Assembly: GCA_902793405.1 (NCBI GenBank) | Contig: CADBDH010000008.1 | Coordinates: 1 to 64,000, forward strand | Source of the DNA: an uncultured Bacteroidales bacterium | GTDB lineage: Bacteria; Bacteroidota; Bacteroidia; Bacteroidales; Muribaculaceae | Reading direction: 5' to 3' | Length of the DNA: 64,000 nucleotides | Shown here: one piece after another, positions 25,740-63,270 of the stretch | Layout of the letters: each line of letters opens with the position of its first letter | Numbering within the stretch: the first letter of the stretch is position 1 | Notes under the pieces: model-generated | The model's input: the letters and a program-made list of their open reading frames with translations, nothing else | Databases searched by the model: none | Told to the model about the DNA's origin: nothing | Translations under genes and position numbers: made by a program

Positions 25740-26933
25740 TTACAGGCCAGTGATGCGGACTACGGGGCCCAGGGGCTTGAGGTTATCCTCATTGCCGCCT
25801 TGAGTGGTAAGGATCCAGGCTAGGGGTTTGTGGCGCTTGTCGTCGGGCAGCTTGGGGATGGCGGCGTAGCCGTCGGTCAGGAAGACCAGGCCGTCATATT
25901 CCTCGTGCTCGTAGTAGAAGTCGATGGCGGGCTGGAAATTGGTGCCCCCACGGCCGGTCACACGTATGGTTTTGGATGCCTGTTTGAGCTGGATGGGCTG
26001 CTCGGTGGTGATTTTGCTGTCAAACTCGATGACCTCGATGCTCTCGATGCCCTGCTTGAAGAAGCGGTTGATGACGGCGAGGAACTTGCGGATGTCCTCG
26101 TCGGGCACACTGCCGCTCACGTCCACTGCGACGAGCAGGCGGGTGCTGTAGGCATACTGGCTGCCCATGGCGTCGAAGCCGTAGCGGCGGTTGGGACGCA
26201 TGCGCGTCAGGTGGCGCTTGGTGCTCAGGATGCTGGCACGGAACTGGCTGAGGATGGCCCTGAAGTTCTGCTTGCTCACCAAGGTGCTCTCGATGAGCGC
26301 CTTGAGGTCTCCGCTCAGCGAGCCCCACTGGTTGCACCGCTGAGCGGTTTCAATCTCGTGGTTGACCTTCTCGCTCATCAGTTCGTCTTCTTCCCACAGC
26401 GAGGCTCCCGCGTCGGCTGCCAGCAGGTCGTCGGTCAGATTCTTGCTATCGCCTTGCATGCTGCTGGGCATGTTCATGTCGATGGGGATACCGTCGCTGT
26501 CGGCATTTTGCTCGAGTTGAATGACCTGGCCCGCCATGAGCGAGTAATACTGCTCAAAGGCCTGGTCACGCTCAATGTTAAAAATGCGCGGCGGTTCCAG
26601 CCCGATGGTGTCCATGCCCTCCAGGTTGTCGCAAAGTGTCAGGTCGCTCGACAGGCGCATCACGTCGCGGCGCGGGTTGTAGGGCTGTCGCTGGTAGGGG
26701 TGCTTGAGGATGATGCGCACCACCTCGGCCTTGAGGCGCAGTGCCAGCTGGTTGTCATCGAAGTGCTCCAACCGCTCGGGGTTATACTCGATGACGCCCT
26801 TGCCGCACCGCATGTCGCAGCCCATGTTGTCGTTGCGTTTCAGGGCATGGGTGCACAGCACGGCAAACAGGAGCGGCTCGGTGAGGAACCAGTCTTGCGA
26901 GAGGGTTTTTATGCGTTCGCCGACGGTCATCAC
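25740..26933 (-). CDS. VWA-domain protein with metallopeptidase-like N-terminus
   Basis: A 397-residue cytoplasmic protein. The N-terminal half fits the DUF2201_N putative metallopeptidase-like domain, although no HExxH is visible. The C-terminal half is a VWA-like fold with the MIDAS motif VAVDVSGSVPDED and a later FLTDGYA. Such proteins work as a pair with a MoxR-type AAA ATPase, whose gene lies just upstream and overlaps by four bases. The complex is thought to act as a chaperone or metal-insertion device; the client is unknown. It is the last gene of the operon. Confidence 0.88.
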   Translation of the reverse strand: MMTVGERIKTLSQDWFLTEPLLFAVLCTHALKRNDNMGCDMRCGKGVIEYNPERLEHFDDNQLALRLKAEVVRIILKHPYQRQPYNPRRDVMRLSSDLTLCDNLEGMDTIGLEPPRIFNIERDQAFEQYYSLMAGQVIQLEQNADSDGIPIDMNMPSSMQGDSKNLTDDLLAADAGASLWEEDELMSEKVNHEIETAQRCNQWGSLSGDLKALIESTLVSKQNFRAILSQFRASILSTKRHLTRMRPNRRYGFDAMGSQYAYSTRLLVAVDVSGSVPDEDIRKFLAVINRFFKQGIESIEVIEFDSKITTEQPIQLKQASKTIRVTGRGGTNFQPAIDFYYEHEEYDGLVFLTDGYAAIPKLPDDKRHKPLAWILTTQGGNEDNLKPLGPVVRITGL

Positions 26934-28000
26934 AGGTCGTTGATCATCTGGTTAATCAACGTCAGCGCGTCGCGGCAGTCCATCATGATGTAGGCGTTGG
27001 CGTTGGGATAGGTTGCGTTCTCAAAGAACGAGGCGAAGTGGGCAATCGCCTCCTGGCGTCCGTTGCCCAGCATCCAGTGGATGTAGCGCACCAGGTTGCG
27101 GCCAACGGTTTCGCTGTCCTCCTTGTTTACACCCAGTTCCAGTACCTGGTAGATGCCCTCGTTGATGATGGCAATCTGGGGCATGGTATAGGTGGCCAGC
27201 TCGTTCTGGCACGAGATGAAGTCTTGCAGTACCTCGCGGGCACTGAGCATGCGCGACTGGTTGAGCGACTGCATGAACATCGATGCCGAACGGGCACCGA
27301 TCACGCCGGTAATCATCTTGGCCAGGCGGTTCATGTCGGTGATGTTGCCGCACGACTGCAGCAACCCCGACACGCGCACCCACGCACGACGGTCGGGCGT
27401 CTTGTCAAAGGTGCCCTTGTTGATATCCACGTTCTTCTCGAGTTCGTCGGGATGTTCCTCGATAAAGGTAATCACGCGCTGGTCGATGCCGTTCTGCTTG
27501 GCCCAGAAGAGCCACTCGCCCACCGTGGGGCTGAAGAAGTACACGTTGAATCGCGACACCAGGGCGGGGTCCAGATCGGTCAGCTGATATTCTTCACCAT
27601 CGTTCACGGCGGCGATGACGCGGCTGCCGGGGGGCAGTGAACGTCCCGCCAGCTTACGGTTGAGCGACAGGTCCATGACCGATTGCAGGATTTCGGGGCG
27701 CGCACGGTTCATCTCGTCCAGGAACAGTACCACGGGTTTGTCATCCATGGGGAACCAGTAGGGCGGCATGAACTCGGTCTTGCCGGTCGCTTCGTCCTTG
27801 TTGGGCAGGCCGATGAGGTCGCCCGGGTCACTCATCTGTCCCAAGAACAGGGCGATGACGGGAATGCCCTGGTCCTCGAAGTGGCGGGTAATGATTTCAC
27901 TCTTTCCAATGCCGTGTTTACCCACGAGCAGGATGTTCTGTGTCGATGGCGTGGTCTCGAGAATGGTCTTGAGGTCGCCGGTGTTGATGGTGATAGCCAT
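26930..28000 (-). CDS. MoxR-type AAA ATPase
   Basis: A 356-residue AAA+ ATPase. Walker A is GKHGIGKS (residues 27-34), Walker B is VVLFLDEMNRA, and sensor 1 is RVIAAVNDG. It forms a classic MoxR-VWA pair with the following gene (ATGA overlap) and should remodel or activate a client protein using ATP. A long heptamer array ends one base before its ATG. The preceding gene, an internally duplicated unknown, may be the third member of the system. Confidence 0.9.
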   Translation of the reverse strand: MAITINTGDLKTILETTPSTQNILLVGKHGIGKSEIITRHFEDQGIPVIALFLGQMSDPGDLIGLPNKDEATGKTEFMPPYWFPMDDKPVVLFLDEMNRARPEILQSVMDLSLNRKLAGRSLPPGSRVIAAVNDGEEYQLTDLDPALVSRFNVYFFSPTVGEWLFWAKQNGIDQRVITFIEEHPDELEKNVDINKGTFDKTPDRRAWVRVSGLLQSCGNITDMNRLAKMITGVIGARSASMFMQSLNQSRMLSAREVLQDFISCQNELATYTMPQIAIINEGIYQVLELGVNKEDSETVGRNLVRYIHWMLGNGRQEAIAHFASFFENATYPNANAYIMMDCRDALTLINQMINDL

Positions 28001-28078
28001 ATTTAGTTTTTAGTTGTTAGTTTCTAGTCCTTAGTTTCTAGTCCTTAGTTTTTAGTCCTTAGTTTTTAGTTGTTTCTA
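28001..28078 (-). repeat. Heptamer array CTARNNN before moxR
   Basis: Read on the minus strand, ten 7-base units (CTAAAAA, CTAAGGA, CTAGAAA, CTAACAA types) run directly into the MoxR start codon, after an initial CTAGAAACAA. Confidence 0.9.
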
Positions 28079-28089
28079 GACTGCGGGCA

Positions 28090-29241
28090 CTATTGTTCGC
28101 TTTTGGCGGTGATCCACTCTGCCTTCTTGAGGGGGCCGACCAGGCGATAGGGGAACATATCGCCGAGTTCAATCAGGCGGGGTATGTAGCCCAGGTCGTG
28201 CTGTAGCCGTTTCTCGAGGTTGTCGGCCTGCTTCAAGTCGATGACCATGGCACGGCCGTGGTTCAGGCGGATGTGCAGCAGGCACTGGCCGGTCTCTTCG
28301 TCCTCGGTGAGGTGGTACTGGATGCGCTTGCCCTGGAAATACTCGTCGATGCTGCGTTGCAACGGTGATTTGACCGTCTGGACGGTCTTGTCACCGCTGT
28401 TGCTGCCGTCTAGCATCCGCTTCAGCCAGCCTTTGACGCCGTGGGGGCGCGGTTGTTCAACGGTGGGCTCGTTGCTCGGTGCAGGGGCCGTTTGCCAGTC
28501 GTCACGCACCTCGCCACGCACGGTGAAACGTCCGTCGCGGGCCATATAGGCAAACTCCACCATGTGGGGTTTGACCAGGTCCAGATGGTTGATGAAATCG
28601 TCGTGGGGAATGGGCAGGTCCAGCGTCTTGTAGGCGTTCAGGCGCACCCACAGGTGCGACTTGTGGCCGTCGACGTGCCGTTTGTCGAAATAATAGGTGA
28701 TGCCCGTACCGTCGAAGTAGCGTGCCAGGTAGGCGTCCATGTTGTTCATTGCCATGTTGCGCATCTTCACGCCCTTGCTGTCGGCCTTAAAGGCTGCGGC
28801 AATCTGTTCGCGCCACTGGGCGGCATGTTCCAGAAACACTTGGCTCGCCTCGACCAGGCGGCTGCGGTCGATGACCTCCATCGGGGCGCCAGTCCACTGC
28901 TGGTGGTAGTGCATATCTTCGATATTAAGGCTTGTGGTGACGGCATTGCCTTGCACGGCATGACATAATGTCAGTCCGCATGGGGATTTTACATTCATCC
29001 CCACGCCATAATTGCCATTGTCGACCAGCTGAACCATATCGTCGGTCACGATACCATTGACGAGTGCGCGATGTGCTGCTTCATACTCTTGTAACATGCG
29101 TGCGCTCAGGCGTGGACCCGTGCCTTGACGGCCGCTCACTCCTGGCCTGTCGCCAAATGCGGGTTTCATCACATGATCAATCTCGCCAGCCACGCGTTGT
29201 GACTCGCTTCCTTCAACGTCGGTATAGGTGTAGATAAACAT
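28090..29241 (-). CDS. Unknown protein with an internal duplication
   Basis: I do not recognise this 383-residue cytoplasmic protein. The open frame starts with TTG at 29259; ATG 29241 (MFIYTYTDVEGSE) is the better start. Two related segments are visible: about 168-216 (AYLARYFDGTGITYYFDKR, then LWVRLNAYKTLDLPI) and about 287-345 (SIDEYFQGKRIQYHLTED, then LLHIRLNHGRAMVIDL). A low-complexity linker (APAPSNEPTVEQPRPHG) joins them. It precedes moxR by 89 bases on the same strand, so it is probably part of the MoxR-VWA operon and could be a client or adaptor. Confidence 0.75.
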   Translation of the reverse strand: MFIYTYTDVEGSESQRVAGEIDHVMKPAFGDRPGVSGRQGTGPRLSARMLQEYEAAHRALVNGIVTDDMVQLVDNGNYGVGMNVKSPCGLTLCHAVQGNAVTTSLNIEDMHYHQQWTGAPMEVIDRSRLVEASQVFLEHAAQWREQIAAAFKADSKGVKMRNMAMNNMDAYLARYFDGTGITYYFDKRHVDGHKSHLWVRLNAYKTLDLPIPHDDFINHLDLVKPHMVEFAYMARDGRFTVRGEVRDDWQTAPAPSNEPTVEQPRPHGVKGWLKRMLDGSNSGDKTVQTVKSPLQRSIDEYFQGKRIQYHLTEDEETGQCLLHIRLNHGRAMVIDLKQADNLEKRLQHDLGYIPRLIELGDMFPYRLVGPLKKAEWITAKSEQ

Positions 29242-29285: not shown

Positions 29286-29327
29286 CTAAAAACTAACAAC
29301 TAAGAACTAACAACTAAAAACTATTTA
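29286..29327 (+). repeat. Heptamer array before the MBOAT gene
   Basis: Six units in exact 7-base register (CTAAAAA, CTAACAA, CTAAGAA, CTAACAA, CTAAAAA, CTATTTA). The next unit, at 29328, is the promoter box itself (C followed by TACCTTTG, 29329-29336). Here the array occupies the promoter's upstream half rather than the leader. Confidence 0.85.
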
Positions 29328-29346
29328 CTACCTTTGCGACCGAGTT

Positions 29347-30744
29347 ATGCAATTCGACACTTACACATACGCGCTGTTCCTGCCCCTGGTGTTTTTCATC
29401 TACTGGGGCTTGCGTCGCCATCTTAAGTGGCAGAACCTGTTCCTGCTGATTGCCAGTTACGTTTTCTACGGCTGGTGGGACTGGAAAATGCTGGGCCTGA
29501 TTGTGCTCACGTCGGTGTCCACCTTTGGCACGGCGCTGATGATGCGCGGCGACCGTTCGCGCCATGACCGCTCCTGGACCGCGGCCAACATCGTGCTCAA
29601 CCTGGGCATCCTGGCCGTGTTCAAGTATCTGAACTTCATGCGGGACAGCTTTGTGCACCTGCTGGGGCTCTTCGGGATAAACCCCGACTGGCCCACCTTG
29701 CACATCCTGTTGCCCGTGGGCATCTCGTTCTATACCTTCCAGGCCATCAGCTATACCATCGACGTGTATCGTGGCGAGGTCAAGCCCACGCGCGACGCGG
29801 TGGCCTTCGGTGTTTTCATCGCCTTTTTCCCGCAGCTGGTGGCCGGCCCTATCGAGCGGGCAACCAATCTGCTGCCCCAGTTCTTGAGAAAGAAGGAGTT
29901 TGACTATGACACGGCCGTCATCGGTATGCGTCAGATTCTGTGGGGCCTTGCCAAGAAAGTCATCGTGGCCGACAGTGTGGGCTACTATGTGGACCAGCTG
30001 CTGTACAACCCCTATTACTATGCCGCGCCCAGCATGATTTGGGCCGGCATCCTGTTTGCCGTGCAGATTTATGCCGACTTCTCGGGTTACAGCGACATCG
30101 CCATCGGCTCGGCGCGCCTGCTCAACATCAAGTTGCAGCCCAACTTCCGCTACCCGTTTTTCTCCCGCAACATGAAGGAGCTGTGGCAGCGGTGGCACAT
30201 CTCGTTGATGACGTGGTTCCGCCATTATGTCTATTTCCCCTTGGGCGGTTCACGCTGCAGCAAGTGGCGCACGGCGCTCAATGTGATGATCGTGTTTGCG
30301 CTCTCTGGCCTGTGGCATGGTGCCGACTGGACTTTCGTCATCTGGGGCACGGTCAATGGCCTGTTGCTGTTGCCCTTTGTATTCCTGCCCCGCAAGCGGC
30401 TGAGCGAACACGCCACGTGGCGCGAACTGCCGCAGTGCCTGTTGACGTTCTTCTTGTTTGCCATGGTATTCATCGCCTTCCGTGCCAACGGCATCACCCA
30501 CCTGGGCGAGATTTGTGACGTGATTGTTAACGGCTCGTGGCGCCAGCGTCCCGTCTTCGGGCAGCCCATTTTCTACATCGTGCCGTTCTTCATCATCGAG
30601 TGGCTGGGCCGCAAGCAGGAATTCCCGTTGAAGCGGCTCCCGTTCCCCACTGTGGTGCGTTGGATTATCTATTGGGGCCTACTGGCCGGTATTTCCATTG
30701 CCAGCCTTGACCGCAACATGCAGTTCATCTATTTCCAGTTCTAG
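29347..30744 (+). CDS. MBOAT-family O-acyltransferase (AlgI-like)
   Basis: A 465-residue polytopic inner-membrane protein with about ten helices. Family motifs are clear: LPVGISFYTFQAISYTIDVY, FFPQLVAGPIERA, YADFSGYSDIAIG and SGLWHGADWTFVIWG with the invariant His. Such enzymes pass acyl groups, usually acetyl, across the membrane to an extracytoplasmic polysaccharide or other acceptor, together with an SGNH/DltD/AlgX-like partner. That partner is the next gene, four bases away. The acceptor is not known; no polysaccharide cluster is adjacent. Confidence 0.93.
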   Translation: MQFDTYTYALFLPLVFFIYWGLRRHLKWQNLFLLIASYVFYGWWDWKMLGLIVLTSVSTFGTALMMRGDRSRHDRSWTAANIVLNLGILAVFKYLNFMRDSFVHLLGLFGINPDWPTLHILLPVGISFYTFQAISYTIDVYRGEVKPTRDAVAFGVFIAFFPQLVAGPIERATNLLPQFLRKKEFDYDTAVIGMRQILWGLAKKVIVADSVGYYVDQLLYNPYYYAAPSMIWAGILFAVQIYADFSGYSDIAIGSARLLNIKLQPNFRYPFFSRNMKELWQRWHISLMTWFRHYVYFPLGGSRCSKWRTALNVMIVFALSGLWHGADWTFVIWGTVNGLLLLPFVFLPRKRLSEHATWRELPQCLLTFFLFAMVFIAFRANGITHLGEICDVIVNGSWRQRPVFGQPIFYIVPFFIIEWLGRKQEFPLKRLPFPTVVRWIIYWGLLAGISIASLDRNMQFIYFQF

Positions 30745-36470: not shown

Positions 36471-36519
36471 CTAAGGACTAAGGACTAACAACTAAAAACT
36501 AAAAACTAAAAACTAAAAT
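36471..36519 (+). repeat. Heptamer array before the holin-like gene
   Basis: Exactly seven 7-base units: CTAAGGA x2, CTAACAA, CTAAAAA x3, CTAAAAT. The ATG follows without a gap. Confidence 0.95.
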
Positions 36520-36861
36520 ATGCTTACTAGACTTCTTATTTCTGCTCTTGCTGTACTCATCACGTCGTTCACACTCGATGGCGTGACGGTTGACCCATGG
36601 TGGTGGGCAGTGATTGTCGCTATCGTGCTCGGGTTTATCAATTCATGGATTCGTCCGCTGGTCAAGCTGCTGGCATTGCCCATCAATATCCTGACGCTGG
36701 GCCTCTTCACCTTTGTCATCAATGCCCTGATGGTACTGCTGTGTTCATGGATCATCGGCCCGCACTTTGTGGTGCAGAGCATCTGGTGGGCTATGGGATT
36801 CAGTATTGTGTTGACTCTGGTGAGCTGGGCGCTGCACTTGCTTTTCCCGCCCAAGAGCTGA
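36520..36861 (+). CDS. Small membrane protein, Phage_holin_4_2 family
   Basis: A 113-residue protein with four predicted helices, matching the PF04020 family (GFINSWIRPLVKLLALPIN, then LTLGLFTFVINALMVLL). Despite the name, these are chromosomal inner-membrane proteins of unknown function found in many bacteria, and nothing here suggests a phage. It is preceded by an exact heptamer array. Confidence 0.88.
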   Translation: MLTRLLISALAVLITSFTLDGVTVDPWWWAVIVAIVLGFINSWIRPLVKLLALPINILTLGLFTFVINALMVLLCSWIIGPHFVVQSIWWAMGFSIVLTLVSWALHLLFPPKS

Positions 36862-38145: not shown

Positions 38146-38184
38146 CTAGCAACTAACAACTAAAAACTAACAACTGATAGCTAA
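38146..38184 (+). repeat. Heptamer array before trmD
   Basis: CTAGCAA, CTAACAA, CTAAAAA, CTAACAA, CTGATAG and CTAA end exactly at the trmD ATG. Confidence 0.9.
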
Positions 38185-38862
38185 ATGCGAATCGATATAC
38201 TGACAGTAATGCCCGACGCACTCGAGTCGCCGTTGCACACCTCCATCCTGCAACGGGCCCAGGACAAGGGCCTAGTGGAGATTCACGTGCACAACCTGCG
38301 CGACTGGAGCCTGCGCAAGCACCGCAAGGTGGACGATTACCCCTTTGGCGGCGAGGCGGGCATGGTGATGCAGATTGAGCCCGTGTGGCGTTGCATGGAG
38401 GAGCTGAAGAGCCAGCGCGAGTATGATGAAATCATCTTTACCTCGCCCGACGGTGAGCAGCTCGACCAACCCATGGCCAATGCCCTGTCGCTCAAGGAGA
38501 ACATCATGATCCTGTGCGGCCACTACAAGGGTGTGGATTACCGCATCCGCGAGCACCTGATTACCAAGGAAATCACCATTGGCGACTATGTGCTCACGGG
38601 CGGCGAACTGCCGGCCGCGGTCATCGCCGATGCCGTGGTGCGTCTGCTGCCCGGAGCCATCGGTGACGAGCAGAGCGCACTGAGCGACTCCTTCCAGGAC
38701 GGACTCATCGAGGCGCCCGTCTATACCCGCCCCGAGGTGTTCAACGGCTGGCACGTCCCCGAAATCCTGCTCAGCGGCCACCAGGCCAAAATCGCCGAGT
38801 GGAAGATGCAGCAGTCGCTCGAACGCACCCGCCGTCTGCGTCCCAACCTGCTGAAAGACTAA
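38185..38862 (+). CDS. trmD: tRNA (guanine37-N1)-methyltransferase
   Basis: A 225-residue SPOUT-class enzyme that methylates G37 next to the anticodon with S-adenosylmethionine, preventing frameshifts. Conserved blocks: [45 protein letters not shown] (knot), [12 protein letters not shown] and [26 protein letters not shown]. The length is normal. Usual rpsP/rplS neighbours are absent. It is flanked on both sides by heptamer arrays. Confidence 0.97.
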
Positions 38863-38908
38863 CTAACAACTAACTAAAAACTAACAACTAACAACTAGCA
38901 ACTAAAAT
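38863..38908 (+). repeat. Heptamer array between trmD and the FtsB/DivIC gene
   Basis: The whole gap from the trmD stop to the next ATG is built of CTAA and CTAACAA/CTAAAAA/CTAGCAA units, seven-base spaced except for two 4-base steps. Confidence 0.9.
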
Positions 38909-39217
38909 ATGTCTCCTTTCAAATTTCAACGTCCCAAGTGGATACCGCGCTGGCTCAACATCCCACTGCTGATTTTCGTCGGCTTTGTGGTAGTGCTGTT
39001 GTTCTTCGGCGACAACAATTACATGCGCATCAGCAAGTACCGCTCGCAAATCAATGACCTCAAGAGCCAGATCAAGAACAACGAGGACTCGGCAGCCCTC
39101 TACGATGCCAAGGTCAACGAGCTGAATACCGACAACGAGACGCTCGAGCGACTCGTTCGTGAGAAGTACGGCATGAAGCGTGTCAACGAGGAAGTTTACA
39201 TCACCGATATTCCCTGA
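38909..39217 (+). CDS. FtsB/DivIC-type septum protein
   Basis: A 102-residue bitopic inner-membrane protein: short basic N-terminus, one membrane helix (about 16-35) and a periplasmic coiled coil (about 40-85) followed by LVREKYGMKRVNEEVYI, the FtsB/DivIC signature. It would help recruit septal peptidoglycan synthases at division. The next gene starts six bases after its stop. Confidence 0.9.
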   Translation: MSPFKFQRPKWIPRWLNIPLLIFVGFVVVLLFFGDNNYMRISKYRSQINDLKSQIKNNEDSAALYDAKVNELNTDNETLERLVREKYGMKRVNEEVYITDIP

Positions 39218-49449: not shown

Positions 49450-51231
49450 ATGTACAGAACCAAGACTAATGGCGAACTTCGCTTGGCCAATGTGGGCGAA
49501 GTCGTGACGCTGGCAGGATGGGTGCAGCGCACCCGCAAGATGGGTGGTATGACCTTTGTGGACCTGCGTGACCGCTATGGCATCACCCAAATCGTGTTTA
49601 ACAATGAGGTTAACGCCGAGCTCTGTGAGCAGGCCAACCACCTGGGTCGTGAATTCGTTATCCAGGTCAAGGGTACCGTGGCCGAGCGTTCCAGCAAGAA
49701 CGCCAACATGCCCACAGGCGATATCGAGATTATTGCCAGTGAGTTGAATATCCTGAGCGAGAGCATCACTCCGCCGTTCACCATCGAGGACAACACCGAC
49801 GGTGGCGACGACCTGAGGATGAAATACCGCTATCTGGACTTGCGCCGCAATGTCGTTCGCAAGAATCTGGAATTGCGCCATGACATGGCCATTCTCATCC
49901 GCAATTATTTGGATGATAAGGGCTTCCTGGAGGTCGAGACGCCTATCCTTATCGGCTCCACCCCCGAGGGCGCACGCGACTTTATCGTGCCTTCGCGCAT
50001 GAATCCCGGTCAATTCTATGCCCTGCCGCAGAGCCCGCAGACGCTTAAGCAGCTGCTGATGGTGGCCGGCTTTGACCGTTATTTCCAGATTGCCAAGTGT
50101 TTCCGCGACGAGGACCTGCGTGCCGACCGTCAGCCCGAGTTCACCCAGATCGACTGCGAGATGAGCTTCGTGGACCAGGAGGATGTGCTCGAGGTGTTTG
50201 AGGGACTGGCCCGTCACCTGTTCAAGAAGGTGCGCAACGTGGACCTGCCCGAGAAGCTGGAGCAGATGACCTGGCACGACGCGATGCGTCTGTATGGTAG
50301 CGATAAGCCTGACCGCCGTTTCGGCATGACCTTTGTCGAGGTCGACGATGTGCTCAAGGGCACCGGCACCTTCCCCGTGTTCAACGAGGCCAACTACATC
50401 GGCGCCATCTGCGCTCCCGGCTGTGCCGACTACACCCGCAAGCAGCTCGACGGCCTGGTAGACTTCGTCAAGCGTCCGCAGGTGGGTGCCAAGGGCTTGG
50501 TATATGTCAAGTTCAATGCCGACGGTACCGTCAAGAGCAGCATCGACAAGTTCTATGAGCCCGCCCTTTGGCAGCAGCTCAAGGAGAAGATGGGTGCCAA
50601 CGATGGCGACCTCGTGCTCATCATGAGCGGCGACAACGCCAACAAGACGCGCGTGCAGCTGTGCACCCTGCGTCTGGAGATGGGCGAGCGTCTGGGCCTC
50701 AGGGACAAGAACAAGTTCGAGTGCCTGTGGATTGTGGACTTCCCGCTGTTTGAGTGGAGCGACGAGGAGCAGCGCCTGATGGCGACACACCATCCCTTCA
50801 CCATGCCCAACCCCGACGATATCCCCTTGCTCGACGAGCATCCCGAGAAGGTGCGCGCCGTGGCCTATGACTTTGTGTGCAACGGCATCGAGGTGGGTGG
50901 CGGTAGCCTGCGTATCCACGACGGCAAGCTGCAGGCCAAGATGTTCGACATCCTGGGCTTCACCCCCGAGCGCGCTATGGCTCAGTTCGGCTTCCTGATC
51001 AATGCCTTCAAGTACGGTGCACCTCCCCACGCCGGTCTGGCCTTCGGTTTCGACCGCTTCGTGTCCATCATGGCCGGTTTGGACAGCATCCGTGACTGCA
51101 TCGCCTATCCCAAGAACAACAGTGGCCGCGACGTCATGCTCGACGCTCCCAGCCCCGTGGACCAGAGCCAGCTCGACGAACTCTACATCAACGTGGACCG
51201 CGAGCGCCTCAAAGCCGAGAACAAAATTTAA
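49450..51231 (+). CDS. aspS: Aspartyl-tRNA synthetase
   Basis: A 593-residue class IIb synthetase charging tRNA-Asp. OB-fold anticodon domain (1-110; [20 protein letters not shown]), motif 2 ([19 protein letters not shown]), bacterial GAD insertion (about 290-420) and motif 3 ([20 protein letters not shown]). The length is normal for the bacterial type. The window also holds two tRNA-Asp genes, but they are far away. An inverted pair of heptamer arrays separates it from the next gene. Confidence 0.98.
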
Positions 51232-51240
51232 TAGTAAAGT

Positions 51241-51269
51241 TTTAAGTTGTTAGTTTTTAGTTCTTAGTA
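51241..51269 (+). repeat. Reverse-oriented heptamer array behind aspS
   Basis: TTAAGTTG, TTAGTTT, TTAGTTC and TTAG follow the aspS stop in the TTAG orientation. They can pair with the CTAA array at 51311-51338. Confidence 0.8.
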
Positions 51270-51310
51270 TAATTACCTCTGCCTCGCCTTTTCAGGCGGC
51301 TGTAATCGCA

Positions 51311-51338
51311 CTAACAACTAAAAACTAACAACTATCAA
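51311..51338 (+). repeat. Heptamer array before the Nif3-like gene
   Basis: CTAACAA, CTAAAAA, CTAACAA, CTATCAA, ending eight bases before the ATG. Confidence 0.85.
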
Positions 51339-51346
51339 CCTCAACC

Positions 51347-52147
51347 ATGCAAATCAAGGAAATCACCGACGCCATCGAGCAATACGCTCCCTTGCGCTTG
51401 CAGGAGGAGTGGGACAATGCGGGCATCCAGGTGGGTGACCCCGAGGCCCAGGTCACGGGCGTCCTGCTCTGCACCGATGCTACCGAGGCCGTTGTGGCCG
51501 AGGCCATTGAGCGTGGCTACAACCTGGTCATCTCGCATCATCCGCTCATCTTTCGCGGTCTCAAGAAGATCATGGGCCGCACATCCGTTGAGCGCGCCGT
51601 GGCTATGGCCATCAAGCACGACATCACCATCTACAGCGCCCACACCAACATGGACAGCGCCTGGCAGGGTGTATCGTTCCACATGGCCGGGAAAATAGGG
51701 ATGACCAATGTGGAGTTTCTCGACGCCAACGCTGTGGAGCCCTATGGCGCCCAGGGCAGCACCACTGCGGGCTGCGGCGTCGTCGGCGACATTGAGCCGG
51801 CACCGGCCAGCGAAGTGCTCAAGCGCGTCAAGCAGGCCTTTGAGGTGGGCGCAGTGCGCTACAGTGGCGACGGCAACCGCATGGTGAGCCGTGTGGCCCT
51901 GTGTGGCGGCGCCGGCGGCTTCCTGCTCGACAAGGCCGTTGCAGCAGGCGCCCAGCTCTATGTCACGGCCGATATGCGTTACCATGATTTCCTGGACAAT
52001 AGCCAGCGCATTGTCGTGGCCGATATCGGGCACTATGAGAGCGAGCATTACACAAAAGAGATTTTTTTAGAGATTATTCAGAAAAAAAGTCCTACCTTTG
52101 CAGTCGCTTTCGCAAAAAATGAAACTAATCAAGTGAATTATTTATAA
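51347..52147 (+). CDS. Nif3-like dinuclear metal centre protein
   Basis: A 266-residue member of the Nif3/YbgI (DUF34) family, which forms hexameric toroids with a two-metal site in each subunit. Metal-binding segments are VISHHPLIFRGLKKI (His pair), SAHTNMDSAWQGV and, near the end, ADIGHYESEHYTKEIF. The biochemical role is unsettled; GTP cyclohydrolase-like activity and a part in NAD-related repair have been proposed for relatives. Its last 60 bases hold the promoter of the next gene. Confidence 0.93.
   Translation: MQIKEITDAIEQYAPLRLQEEWDNAGIQVGDPEAQVTGVLLCTDATEAVVAEAIERGYNLVISHHPLIFRGLKKIMGRTSVERAVAMAIKHDITIYSAHTNMDSAWQGVSFHMAGKIGMTNVEFLDANAVEPYGAQGSTTAGCGVVGDIEPAPASEVLKRVKQAFEVGAVRYSGDGNRMVSRVALCGGAGGFLLDKAVAAGAQLYVTADMRYHDFLDNSQRIVVADIGHYESEHYTKEIFLEIIQKKSPTFAVAFAKNETNQVNYL
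52093..52100 (+). promoter_or_regulatory. -7 box inside the end of the Nif3-like gene
   Basis: TACCTTTG 58 bases ahead of the zinc-ribbon gene start, with TTTAG near -33. The codon context is AT-rich compared with the rest of the gene. Confidence 0.55.
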
Positions 52148-57066: not shown

Positions 57067-57078
57067 CGATTCCAATTA

Positions 57079-57634
57079 ATGGTGATTCATGGATATTTTT
57101 GGTCATTCGTGTTTTTCATTTAACATGAATGTCCATGAATACCCACGAATGGTCATGAATATTTTTATTAATGATGATTCATGGCCATTTCTGTTCATTC
57201 GTGTTTTCCATTTCACATGAATGGCCATGAATACCCACGAATGGTCATGAATATTTTTATTAATGATAATTCATGGCCATTTCTGTTCATTCGTGTTTCC
57301 AATTAACATGAATGTCCATGAATACCCACGAATGGTCATGAATATTTTTATTAATGATAATTCATGGCCATTTCTGATCATTCGTGTTTCCATTTAACAT
57401 GAATGGCCATGAATACCCGCGAATGGTCATGAATATTTTTATTAATGATAATTCATGGATATTTTTGGCCATTCGTGTTTTTCATTTAACGTGAATGTCC
57501 ATGAATACCCACGAATGGTCATGAATATTTTTATTAATGATGATTCATGGTCATTTCTGTTCATTCGTGTTTTCCATTTAACGTGAATGTCCATGAATAC
57601 CCACGAATGGTCATGTATATTTTTATTATAAGTC
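57079..57634. repeat. 92-bp tandem repeat, six copies
   Basis: ATTCATGG marks the units at 57085, 57177, 57269, 57360, 57451 and 57543, so the period is 91-92 bases. Each unit contains inverted words: ATTCATGGNNAT pairs with ATNNCCATGAAT, and CATTCGTG with CACGAATG. It can therefore fold as a compound hairpin. Units differ by a few bases (TGGCCATTTCTG or TGGATATTTTTG variants). No ORF crosses it. Confidence 0.95.
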
Positions 57635-58941: not shown

Positions 58942-58995
58942 CTAATAACTAAGGACTAGAAACTAGAAACTAAATACTAACAACTAGAAACTAAA
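58942..58995 (+). repeat. Heptamer array before the GYF-domain gene
   Basis: CTAATAA, CTAAGGA, CTAGAAA x2, CTAAATA, CTAACAA, CTAGAAA and CTAAA run in exact 7-base register into the ATG at 58996. Confidence 0.95.
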
Positions 58996-59940
58996 ATGGA
59001 ATTTCATCTGATTAGAAACGGAAAACAGGAAGGTCCGTTTACCGTCGAAGAATTGTCGCAGCAGGGGATTACCCCCGAGAGCGAAGTGTGGGCTCCCGGC
59101 ATGGCCGACTGGATGCAGGCCGGCGACGTGCCCGAGCTGACCGCCGTGCTGCAGCGTGCCGAGTTTGAGGCCTCGCAGCAGGCCGCCCGTGCCGCCGAGA
59201 ACCAGGCGACCATGGGCCAGCCCTATGACCCCGTGGTGCCTCCCACCCAGGCGCCGCCTCAAGTGCCGCCCCGCATGCCCGTGCAGGACGAGGTGAAGAA
59301 GAAAAGCGGCTGTACGCCGTGGCTCATCGCCGCCCTGGTACTGGCCATCTTGTTTGCCACGATGGTGTTCACCTGCCCCAACCGTCAAGACCATGAGACA
59401 GCCATCCAGGAGGTCACCAAGGCTTGGGTGGGCGACAAGGTGGACGAGAACCTGGGTAGCATCACCGGCGTTGGTGGCGTGTTTGGAGACCTCATCAACA
59501 AGGCCCTCAAGCAGTTGACGGGTTTTGGCACCGACCAGGTGATCTCCAACTACCTCGACGTCAAGAACTACGTCGTGTGCTCGGTGGGCCGCATGAGCAT
59601 CGGCGACAACGAGGAGAAGATGGTGTCGCTGGGTGTCTTTGGCCATGTGTTCACCTTCGGTAAGGAGGATATCGAGAAGGCCTGGACCCGTGCGATGGAC
59701 GACTATGAGGCCAACCATCACATCACTCCGCCTCCTGCACCCGCTCCCCAGGCCGATGAGGACACCGATGCCGATGTGCAGGACGAAGAGGCAGCTACCG
59801 ACCCGCGTATGCTTCCCGATAGCGTCATGGGCATCGAGATTCCCGAGGGCATGGATTCCATGGTCAACCAGATGGCCAACGAGGCCATACGCATGGCCAA
59901 GGAGTGGGCCAAGCAGCAAATCGACAAACTGGGCAATTAA
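58996..59940 (+). CDS. GYF-domain membrane protein
   Basis: A 314-residue protein. Residues 1-55 are a GYF_2 domain (FHLIRNGKQEGPFTVEELSQ, then WAPGMADWMQAGD), a fold that binds proline-rich peptides. A Pro-rich linker (VVPPTQAPPQVPPRMP), one membrane helix (about 105-128, LIAALVLAILFATMVF) and an unrecognised outer domain (about 130-245) follow. The tail is acidic and ends in a helix (MDSMVNQMANEAIRMAKEWA). Its function is unknown. The Pro-rich linker could be a ligand for its own GYF domain. Confidence 0.82.
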   Translation: MEFHLIRNGKQEGPFTVEELSQQGITPESEVWAPGMADWMQAGDVPELTAVLQRAEFEASQQAARAAENQATMGQPYDPVVPPTQAPPQVPPRMPVQDEVKKKSGCTPWLIAALVLAILFATMVFTCPNRQDHETAIQEVTKAWVGDKVDENLGSITGVGGVFGDLINKALKQLTGFGTDQVISNYLDVKNYVVCSVGRMSIGDNEEKMVSLGVFGHVFTFGKEDIEKAWTRAMDDYEANHHITPPPAPAPQADEDTDADVQDEEAATDPRMLPDSVMGIEIPEGMDSMVNQMANEAIRMAKEWAKQQIDKLGN

Positions 59941-62367: not shown

Positions 62368-63207
62368 ATGAAAAAGATACAATTAGCATTCATGCTGCTG
62401 GCAGTGGTATTGCTGGCCTCGTGTGTAAAAGATAACGTGTATGAAGGCCCGTCCAAAATCGATGCCGTCTCCATGTCGCCCGAGGCTCCGACCTCGTTCG
62501 ACGACGTTGTGGTTACTGTAACCGTTTCGGGCCTTCAGGCAGTGAAAACCGCTACGCTGAATTATAAAGCAGGTACAACGTCAGGTAGCCTGCCCATGGC
62601 CGGCAGTGGCAATACCTATACGGCCGCGATTCCCGCCCAGCCCGATGGCACCAAGGTGACTTATACCGTTACAGTAGTCAATGAGGCCGGTTACACCACC
62701 GTTTCGCCCGAGAAGGAGTTTACCGTGGGCGACAAACCCTCGGACTTCACCAAGCTGGTACTCAACGAACTCTATGGCGCTGCCGACGCTGATGCCGATA
62801 AGTTCATCGAACTCTACAACAACGGCGACGATCCCATCAAGCTGAAGGGTGTTGTCATCAAGAAGGATGAGGAAGAGACCTGGAGGGGCCTGGAAGGCGA
62901 AGTCATCATGGGTCACAGCTTCTTCACCATCGTGGGTGCCAAGGGTACCACCCCGCGCGGTTTCTCCAGCGGTTTCTCCAGCAAGAAGAGCGTGCTTGTC
63001 GAGATTTATGATCCCAACAACAATCTGGTGGATAAATTCCAGCGCGGCGAGAAGGAAGACGCTTGGGGCAACCAGTCGCTGGCCAAGGTGTCCGGTTCAT
63101 GGAGCCGCTGTCCCAACGGCACCGGCAAGTTCATGATTACCGACACGCCCACCCTGGGTGCAAAGAATCCCGACACCGGTACCGAGGATCCCACTGTAGT
63201 ACAGTAA
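62368..63207 (+). CDS. Lamin-tail-domain lipoprotein
   Basis: A 279-residue lipoprotein (lipobox LASC, Cys 18). An Ig/FN3-like domain (about 30-130; AVSMSPEAPTSFDDVVVTVT) precedes a lamin-tail (LTD) beta-sandwich (about 135-265; KLVLNELYGAADADADKFIE, LVDKFQRGEKEDAWGN). LTD domains occur in secreted nucleases and surface proteins as binding modules. The longer frame from 62338 overlaps the porin stop; ATG 62368 starts the signal peptide. It is the second gene of the porin operon; a role in substrate capture is inference. Confidence 0.86.
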   Translation: MKKIQLAFMLLAVVLLASCVKDNVYEGPSKIDAVSMSPEAPTSFDDVVVTVTVSGLQAVKTATLNYKAGTTSGSLPMAGSGNTYTAAIPAQPDGTKVTYTVTVVNEAGYTTVSPEKEFTVGDKPSDFTKLVLNELYGAADADADKFIELYNNGDDPIKLKGVVIKKDEEETWRGLEGEVIMGHSFFTIVGAKGTTPRGFSSGFSSKKSVLVEIYDPNNNLVDKFQRGEKEDAWGNQSLAKVSGSWSRCPNGTGKFMITDTPTLGAKNPDTGTEDPTVVQ

Positions 63208-63235
63208 TTCAAGTTTCACCCATGTGAAACTTGAA
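63208..63235 (+). terminator. Perfect hairpin behind the LTD lipoprotein
   Basis: Twelve-base arms (63208-63219 and 63224-63235, TTCAAGTTTCAC) with a CCAT loop, starting at the stop codon. No T-run; a heptamer array follows directly. Confidence 0.65.
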
Positions 63236-63270
63236 GTCTAGGGTCTAGGGTCTAGAGTCTAGAGTTTAGA
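63236..63270 (+). repeat. Heptamer array GTYTAGR x5
   Basis: GTCTAGG x2, GTCTAGA x2, GTTTAGA: the same order of unit types as at 2453-2480, and the same place directly behind a perfect hairpin. Confidence 0.9.

Follow-up and report, generated by a model that had tools for sequence, protein, structure and literature searches.

Introduction

Tandem repeats with a unit of seven nucleotides have been described near genes in several groups of bacteria. In marine Beggiatoaceae, the cited sections of MacGregor 2015 (PMC4679880) describe 169 sets of TAACTGA repeats, mostly in the forward orientation and with 12 of 170 reading toward a stop; the largest class ends 1 nt before a start codon, and a role in translation was proposed. 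According to the same sections, that system has few recognisable ribosome-binding sites, includes essential genes, and was also noted in five Bacteroidetes. The GGGAATC/GGGGAYT heptads of Xanthomonas and Nostoc, as set out in the cited part of Rehm 2015 (PMC4692102), are ~90% intergenic and mostly between co-directional genes; their average distance is 28 nt to the upstream gene but 160 nt to the downstream one. For prokaryotic heptanucleotide repeats as a whole, polymerase slippage has been proposed as the origin (Mrazek 2007, via PMC4679880 and PMC4692102), and the passages of these two papers that cite that work mention no orientation rule or leader function. Lastly, A at positions -3, -6, -12 and -13, together with mRNA structure, tunes initiation in Flavobacterium johnsoniae (PMC6847099); in the cited part of that study, the Kozak-like region is a property of ordinary leaders, not of repeats.

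Here, we describe arrays of CTARNNN heptads in an uncultured bacterium of the Muribaculaceae and in related gut bacteria, starting from a stretch of 64,000 nt (contig CADBDH010000008.1, positions 1 to 64,000; hereafter, the window). Like the TAACTGA repeats in the cited sections of PMC4679880, their closest published counterpart, they are stop-bearing tandem heptamers that are mostly intergenic, forward and near a start. Unlike those repeats, the units here are CTARNNN rather than TAACTGA. Moreover, the same sections report one favored heptamer, with related heptamers rarely repeated in a given genome, whereas here the unit alphabet is genome-specific, one genome has several unit families, arrays after stops are mostly reversed, some junctions have a middle element, and orthologous junctions carry differing units. 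The arrays resemble the heptads in the cited part of PMC4692102 in being degenerate around a fixed core, in lying outside genes and mostly between co-directional ones, in forming paired inverted arrays and in differing in length between close species; those heptads are, however, G-rich and quadruplex-forming, whereas G runs in each unit are absent here. With prokaryotic and cyanobacterial heptanucleotide repeats, as summarized in the citing passages of PMC4679880 and PMC4692102, the arrays share an excess of period 7, a location outside genes and a patchy distribution among lineages. With the Kozak-like regions in the cited part of PMC6847099, they share A-rich leaders that lack Shine-Dalgarno sequences, and a presumed dependence of initiation on structure.

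The feature is real, strongly non-random and wider than first noted, and its kind, heptanucleotide repeats near starts, is known. Relative to the parts of the literature compared, what is apparently new is the two-sided orientation, the genome-specific alphabet and the presence of different units at orthologous junctions. Among the matches listed in a search of the open literature, which leaves most subscription papers outside, none describes such arrays in Muribaculaceae or a two-sided orientation rule.

Arrays before start codons in the window

A sequence-only reading of the window had described CTARNNN arrays directly before seven unrelated genes. We found all seven at the positions given, each reading toward its gene, and Pfam bears out the gene assignments: AAA_5 (MoxR-like), MBOAT, Phage_holin_4_2, tRNA_m1G_MT (trmD), DivIC, DUF34_NIF3 and GYF_2. 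The arrays, and a box associated with one of them, are as follows.

28001–28078, - strand: CTARNNN array of 9–10 units, reaching the ATG of the MoxR-like AAA_5 gene (26930–28000)
29286–29327, + strand: CTARNNN array with 5 exact units, in the divergent gap before MBOAT (29347–30744)
29329–29336, + strand: TACCTTTG box, fitting TAnnTTTG, promoter-like, between the array and MBOAT
36471–36519, + strand: CTARNNN array of 7 units, with the ATG of the Phage_holin_4_2 gene (36520–36861) as the next base
38146–38184, + strand: CTARNNN array with one CTGA unit, reaching the ATG of trmD (38185–38862)
38863–38908, + strand: CTARNNN array that makes up the entire gap from the trmD stop to the ATG of the DivIC/FtsB-like gene (38909–39217)
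51311–51338, + strand: CTARNNN array ahead of the NIF3 gene (51347–52147)
58942–58995, + strand: CTARNNN array of 8 units, with the ATG of the GYF_2 gene (58996–59940) as the next base

The same-strand gene upstream of the moxR array ends at 28090. The arrays had been said to run into start codons, and five of the seven do so if the last partial unit is counted (moxR, holin-like, trmD, DivIC and GYF). The other two stop short: the Nif3 array lies 8 nt from its ATG, and the MBOAT array lies 19 nt from its ATG when measured from position 29327, or 26 nt when measured from the last exact unit. The arrays had also been called exact, which is not true of those before trmD (CTGATAG/CTAA at the end) and DivIC (a 4-nt slip). 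A fixed register relative to the ATG is not borne out either: the position of the C modulo 7 was not significantly uneven across 91 near-start arrays from the window's genome and related genomes (p 0.21), and 44 of these 91 arrays end between -4 and +3 nt of the ATG.

The stretch before MBOAT that contains TACCTTTG is also present in two relatives (L031 and L041). We take TAnnTTTG to be the Bacteroidota -7 box. Because this promoter-like sequence sits between the array and the start, the MBOAT array is probably outside the mRNA leader of that gene. A TAnnTTTG box separates the array from the ATG in 9 of 105 sense arrays, and the window, L031 and L041 each contribute one of these nine with the MBOAT-type leader. 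The distance from the repeat end to the first base of the box is 8 nt in all but one of them. Given the box between array and start, any action of these nine arrays would probably be at the level of DNA.

The 7 nt spacing is far from random. Over both strands of the window, CTAR recurs at this spacing in 11 chains of at least three units at 10 distinct places (array 63235–63269 is counted on both strands), against a mean of 0.043 and a maximum of 1 in 300 local shuffles. Spacing 14, a multiple of 7, yields 10 chains, and each other spacing from 4 to 15 yields 0 or 1. No Rfam family matched at the arrays; at gathering scores, the window gives only three tRNAs.

Placement and orientation of arrays between genes

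For a scan that is blind to the repeat unit, we used autocorrelation at periods 4–16 over 1.9 Mb from the window's genome and 80 related loci, which are the best 80 of 558 loci ranked by trmD. Among the matches listed, the closest trmD relatives are metagenome-assembled Muribaculaceae, Prevotellaceae, Porphyromonadaceae or Bacteroidales, many of them linked to ruminants or the RUG series, presumably rumen genomes. The scan was divided into 464 kb from the window's genome (the window plus 400 kb), 672 kb from close relatives (L030–L064) and 769 kb from further relatives (L065–L109). Some of the stretches analyzed may belong to species already represented among the named trmD loci. An array threshold of 14 was applied in the period scan, in array-poor genomes, for units lacking a stop, for stop content near starts and stops, and in the clean orientation set; a threshold of 10 or 11 was applied for species turnover, the G+T check, folding, gap counts, leader openness and trmD-ftsB openness. 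All counts pool related genomes, and arrays of one genome are not independent.

Period 7 gave 43, 73 and 55 arrays in the three sets, and period 14, its multiple, gave 25, 51 and 35; all other periods from 4 to 16 gave 0 to 17 arrays each. Arrays are not found equally inside genes. Rather, the midpoint lies outside called genes for all 171 period-7 arrays, with genes and starts called by a simple codon-usage caller that trimmed or missed some genes; DNA outside called genes makes up 12–19% of the scanned sets. The arrangement of the flanking genes also matters. When gaps of 50–200 nt are pooled over all sets, arrays occupy 147 of 678 co-directional gaps, as compared with 3 of 78 convergent gaps (p 3.5e-5) and 4 of 39 divergent gaps (p 0.11).

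The view that arrays belong to starts alone proved too narrow, since the window also has one inverted array and two arrays downstream of stops.

2452–2479, + strand: 3'-side RGTYTAG array adjoining a hairpin of 11 bp, past a gene whose end is at 2422
51247–51267, - strand: inverted array of the same family as the CTARNNN start arrays, 15 nt past the stop of the tRNA-synt_2 gene (49450–51231)
63235–63269, + strand: 3'-side RGTYTAG array adjoining a hairpin of 12 bp, past a gene whose end is at 63207

Both RGTYTAG arrays are of the CTAAACC/CTAGACC type. The CTAAACC-type unit (2452–2479; also G000:C2:144552–144611) is shared with the plant telomere repeat TTTAGGG, probably by coincidence.

The orientation of an array differs with the gene end that it adjoins. 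In a sample of 51 rows from the window's genome (one CTAAYCN row and five leftover rows are the other strand of listed arrays), a start lies ahead of 24 of the 25 CTARNNA rows. Rows of CTARRCN (10 of 11), CTAAYCN (5 of 5) and CTARNRC (5 of 5) instead point at the stop of an opposite-strand gene, which in the sense of that gene is NNNYTAG after the stop. The claim that arrays before starts keep one sense relative to the gene was upheld in the clean pooled set: of 48 start-side arrays, 32 contain more CTAA than TTAG, none contains more TTAG, and 16 are ties. On the stop side, TTAG outnumbers CTAA in 45 of 76 arrays, with 11 reversed and 20 ties. Composition follows suit, with A+C above 0.55 in 41 of the 48 start-side arrays and below 0.45 in none, and with 9% G in arrays nearest a start as compared with 23% in those nearest a stop. 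We considered base composition as the cause of this orientation and rejected it: array-less gaps in the window's genome have no excess of G/T after stops (G+T 0.45).

Predicted openness of array leaders

The arrays had been described as G-poor and unstructured in a way that could help initiation, and folding predictions agree. From -20 to +3, the predicted unpaired probability is 0.73 for 45 array leaders, chosen for at least three sense C-stop cores, and 0.51 for array-less co-directional leaders, of which 200 of 450 were sampled. Reverse-complementing the 50 nt upstream lowered the value for array leaders to 0.48 and shuffling lowered it to 0.66. Array leaders are thus predicted to be unusually unpaired only in the orientation observed, and composition supplies much of this openness. 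The bases nearest the start are also those of a Kozak-like open leader (A at -3 and -6, low structure): A occupies position -3 at 58% of 65 array starts as compared with 38% of 966 others, with G at 12% as compared with 30%, and A occupies position -6 at 58% as compared with 38%.

We rejected the idea that openness is peculiar to leaders with arrays. At the trmD-ftsB junction, leaders from 19 genomes without an array have a value of 0.76, as compared with 0.80 in 17 genomes with one (p 0.15). Because array-less orthologues are equally open there, the array is not needed at this junction, and we regard it as one route to an open leader rather than as a switch that the gene could not do without. 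Nor are whole junctions with one array folded less than shuffles would predict: their mean folding z is -1.96, with 47 of 121 below -2, as compared with -1.19 and 26 of 80 for sampled array-less junctions. This, too, speaks against the arrays being required for openness.

We favor, as a model whose chances we see as evenly balanced, lineage-specific heptanucleotide repeats that act as open leaders: units would multiply by duplication, and initiation would decide which arrays persist. On this model, heptads would change by whole units, perhaps through slippage, and would draw on a small genome-wide alphabet. Selection would admit arrays almost solely outside genes, chiefly in co-directional and probably co-transcribed gaps. 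Before a start, arrays with units of the form C-stop-N-N-A, or of comparable A/C-rich make-up, would be retained because that strand is A/C-rich, G-poor and single-stranded. Bacteroidota ribosomes initiate independently of Shine-Dalgarno pairing and need adenines and little structure ahead of the start codon, and for that reason an array would be a ready-made open leader, with selection for openness and a possible effect on expression. After a stop, arrays start with the stop codon itself or next to a hairpin and are mostly in the reverse sense; leader openness gives no explanation for this 3'-side orientation (45 vs 11, 20 ties). Frame closure between genes would be a by-product or a secondary benefit.

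Closure of reading frames

The sequence-only reading emphasized that a 7 nt unit containing a stop codon closes all three frames and so stops any incoming ribosome. Closure itself is plain to see. All seven window arrays close the three sense frames, and all seven close the three antisense frames too. In the larger set, every sense frame is closed within 50 nt in 42 of 45 array leaders, as compared with 117 of 450 array-less leaders, and every antisense frame in 34 of 45 as compared with 110 of 450.

Could the arrays be translational insulators, with a 7-base stop-bearing unit selected to close all frames, so that a ribosome that slips or reads through does not arrive at the next start in the wrong frame? 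We consider this unlikely, despite several observations that are consistent with it. In most units, the core consists of a C followed by a stop codon, and all three stop codons serve in this role. Among 466 units that read toward a start and are flanked by C-stop units, the cores are CTAA (227), CTGA (83), CTAG (55) and CTTA (20), followed by CCAA (11), CTAT (8), CTCA (7) and a scattered remainder. Toward a stop, where CTGA has no stop in the gene sense, CTGA accounts for only 8 of 257 flanked units, the others including CTAA (162), CTAG (25) and TTAG (13). For both counts, two sets were summed, and units within one array are not independent. The consensus unit contains a sense stop in 82 of 94 arrays near starts and 109 of 121 near stops, as compared with averages of ~50 and ~74 for permuted units. 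In the clean set, the corresponding figures are 45 of 48 on the start side and 73 of 76 on the stop side, and stops confined to one strand are in the sense strand in 20 arrays and in the antisense strand in 5.

Nonetheless, arrays on the stop side often include the gene's own stop, making a sense stop trivial. Near starts, the strand bias is weak: antisense stops occur in 80 of the 94 arrays, and sense-only arrays stand against antisense-only arrays at 11 to 9 among the 94 and at 7 to 3 in the clean set; sense-specific selection of stops is not established there. Antisense closure of array leaders nearly matches sense closure, and units that lack a sense stop, such as CTTACAA and CTATTCT, form arrays too. 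Hence, the claim of closed frames stands, but closure as a selected property near starts is not established, since antisense stops are almost equally common. In an open-leader repeat, the stop codons might bring an additional, secondary advantage.

Unit alphabet and turnover between species

Arrays are abundant throughout the window's genome (3.19 Mb in 72 contigs), with 688 matches, overlapping ones counted, to four phased CTAR units, as compared with 34 to the backward pattern, a control that can match heptads of another phase (CTAATCN). The CTAR pattern is present in 20 of 24 same-genus relatives, with counts from 0 to 626 (1 to 626 where present), in 50 of 149 genomes of a family sample and in 109 of 296 genomes of a phylum sample, mostly at low counts; the family and phylum samples each include the window's genome, which has the highest count in the genus, family and phylum searches. 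Of two array-poor genomes of the genus, one has 2 period-7 arrays over 134 kb and the other has none over 54 kb. Other Bacteroidota are rich in heptads (G321, G365, G180, G052 and G096); in G321 and G180, counts of the backward pattern are high too, which suggests other unit alphabets elsewhere in the phylum.

The arrays of a genome share their units. Of 24 arrays of the window's genome (one being the 3'-side array 63235–63269 read from the opposite strand), 19 have units whose final four letters are AAAA, 17 have ACAA there, 11 AGGA, 10 GAAA, 6 GGGA and 4 AGAA, and the alphabet comprises CTAAAAA, CTAACAA, CTAAGGA, CTAGAAA and CTAGGGA. Across 105 arrays, unit sharing is 0.35 within genomes and 0.16 between them, a difference that none of 2000 permutations equaled. 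We rejected the copying of multi-unit blocks between loci of the window's genome: neither shared pairs (p 0.39) nor shared triples (p 0.076) significantly exceed those in shuffled order. This raises the question of how loci come to share units, perhaps by exchange, but not unit order.

Between species, the same junction carries different units. Between trmD and ftsB, the window has CTAACAA-type units, and relatives have CTTAAAA (L031), AGGCTTT (L033), CTAAGGA (L034), CTAAACT (L038), CTAATCA (L041), CTGAAAA (L051), CTATTCT (L049) or no array. Unit number, which was suspected to vary, does differ between species, with one genome compared per species: before the holin-like gene there are 7 units in the window, ~5 in L031 and 0 in L030. 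One orthologous junction is 203 nt long in L051 and 56 nt long in its relative L063, and the difference is mostly units. The gene ahead of trmD seems to have been replaced in several relatives (such as L042, L043 and L047), with a short, array-less gap; the replacing gene ends in an Asp/Asn-rich motif that we assume to be dockerin-like.

A doubtful alternative is passive slippage, in which heptads, reflecting the polymerase footprint, expand wherever they do no harm and have no function. Indeed, heptamers are the commonest long simple repeats in most of the prokaryote genomes surveyed (Mrazek 2007, as related in the citing passages of PMC4679880 and PMC4692102), the distribution among relatives is patchy, and the leaders of array-less orthologues are equally open. 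However, convergent gaps, which should be the most tolerant sites, are nearly empty. The dependence of orientation on gene end also argues against slippage alone, as does the sharing of a unit alphabet among loci, which is unlike the outcome of independent slippage.

The arrays might also be a genome-wide punctuation: a private alphabet of about six heptads at gene borders, reversed between the ends and the starts of genes, copied in trans and read as a standard leader. We view this with the same doubt as passive slippage, and the proposed details with no less doubt, namely a dedicated factor or template switching over short patches as the means of copying, and reading by the ribosome or an RNA-binding protein. 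If it were true, the whole set of operon junctions would change unit type together in evolution.

Junctions with two arrays

Some junctions carry one array after the upstream stop and another before the downstream start. The window arrays at 51247–51267 and 51311–51338 are predicted to pair, and the junction that contains them (51231–51346) has a folding z of -9.0. Such junctions might be intercistronic hairpins or protein-binding elements, with the post-stop and pre-start arrays as the arms of a single RNA element whose middle often holds GCATCCGC or GCGGATGC and which would protect, cleave or regulate the operon mRNA; we judge this very improbable. In favor of such elements, co-directional junctions with two arrays have a mean folding z of -2.76, with 15 of 30 below -2. 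Moreover, GCATCCGC is the commonest intergenic 8-mer with at least 5 G/C in the array-rich sets, and it or its complement sits between both arrays of two-armed junctions in several genomes. It occurs 31 times in 115 kb of intergenic DNA and 119 times in 1,440 kb of coding DNA; one gene that the caller missed in several relatives lies beyond the gap limit of this count. Nonetheless, just 30 of the 151 array-bearing junctions in the folding set have two arrays, and only one of the three in our sample from the window's genome is strongly folded (z -9.0, 1.3 and -2.0). Array-less junctions fold as well (mean z -1.19; 26 of 80, sampled from 671, below -2). We rejected a general intercistronic hairpin, which holds for some two-array junctions only.

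Hairpins of at least 6 bp do adjoin 7 of 17 RGTYTAG arrays, as compared with 94 of 1858 intergenic places picked at random. No hairpin excess is seen in the remaining unit families tested (0 of 7, 0 of 3 and 5 of 64). In two relatives, long intergenic gaps (L140 6482–6760 and L129 1800–1901) hold repeated modules, ~76 bp apart in L140, of a hairpin-like stretch, an RGTTTAG array and GCATCCGC, like a composite repeated element. The window has a separate intergenic repeat at 57075–57628, six tandem copies of a 92-bp unit made up of ATTCATG/CATGAAT-like phrases; similar phrases occur in a long gap of the relative L051.

Phase variation, with unit number setting the level of expression, would fit the differences at the holin-like gene (7, ~5 and 0 units in the window, L031 and L030) and at the 203 and 56 nt junctions of L051 and L063, but is highly implausible: arrays precede housekeeping genes (trmD, DivIC and NIF3), their heterogeneous units should slow slippage, and unit number leaves the frame unchanged because the arrays are untranslated.

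Significance

The arrays extend a little-studied kind of repeat. They also provide a natural set of matched leaders for asking how ribosomes that ignore Shine-Dalgarno sequences find starts inside operons. One and the same gene is preceded by CTAACAA, CTTAAAA, CTGAAAA, CTAAACT or no array, depending on the species. Because related species carry different units, or none, at the same gene, the effects of orientation, of stop content and of openness could be told apart.
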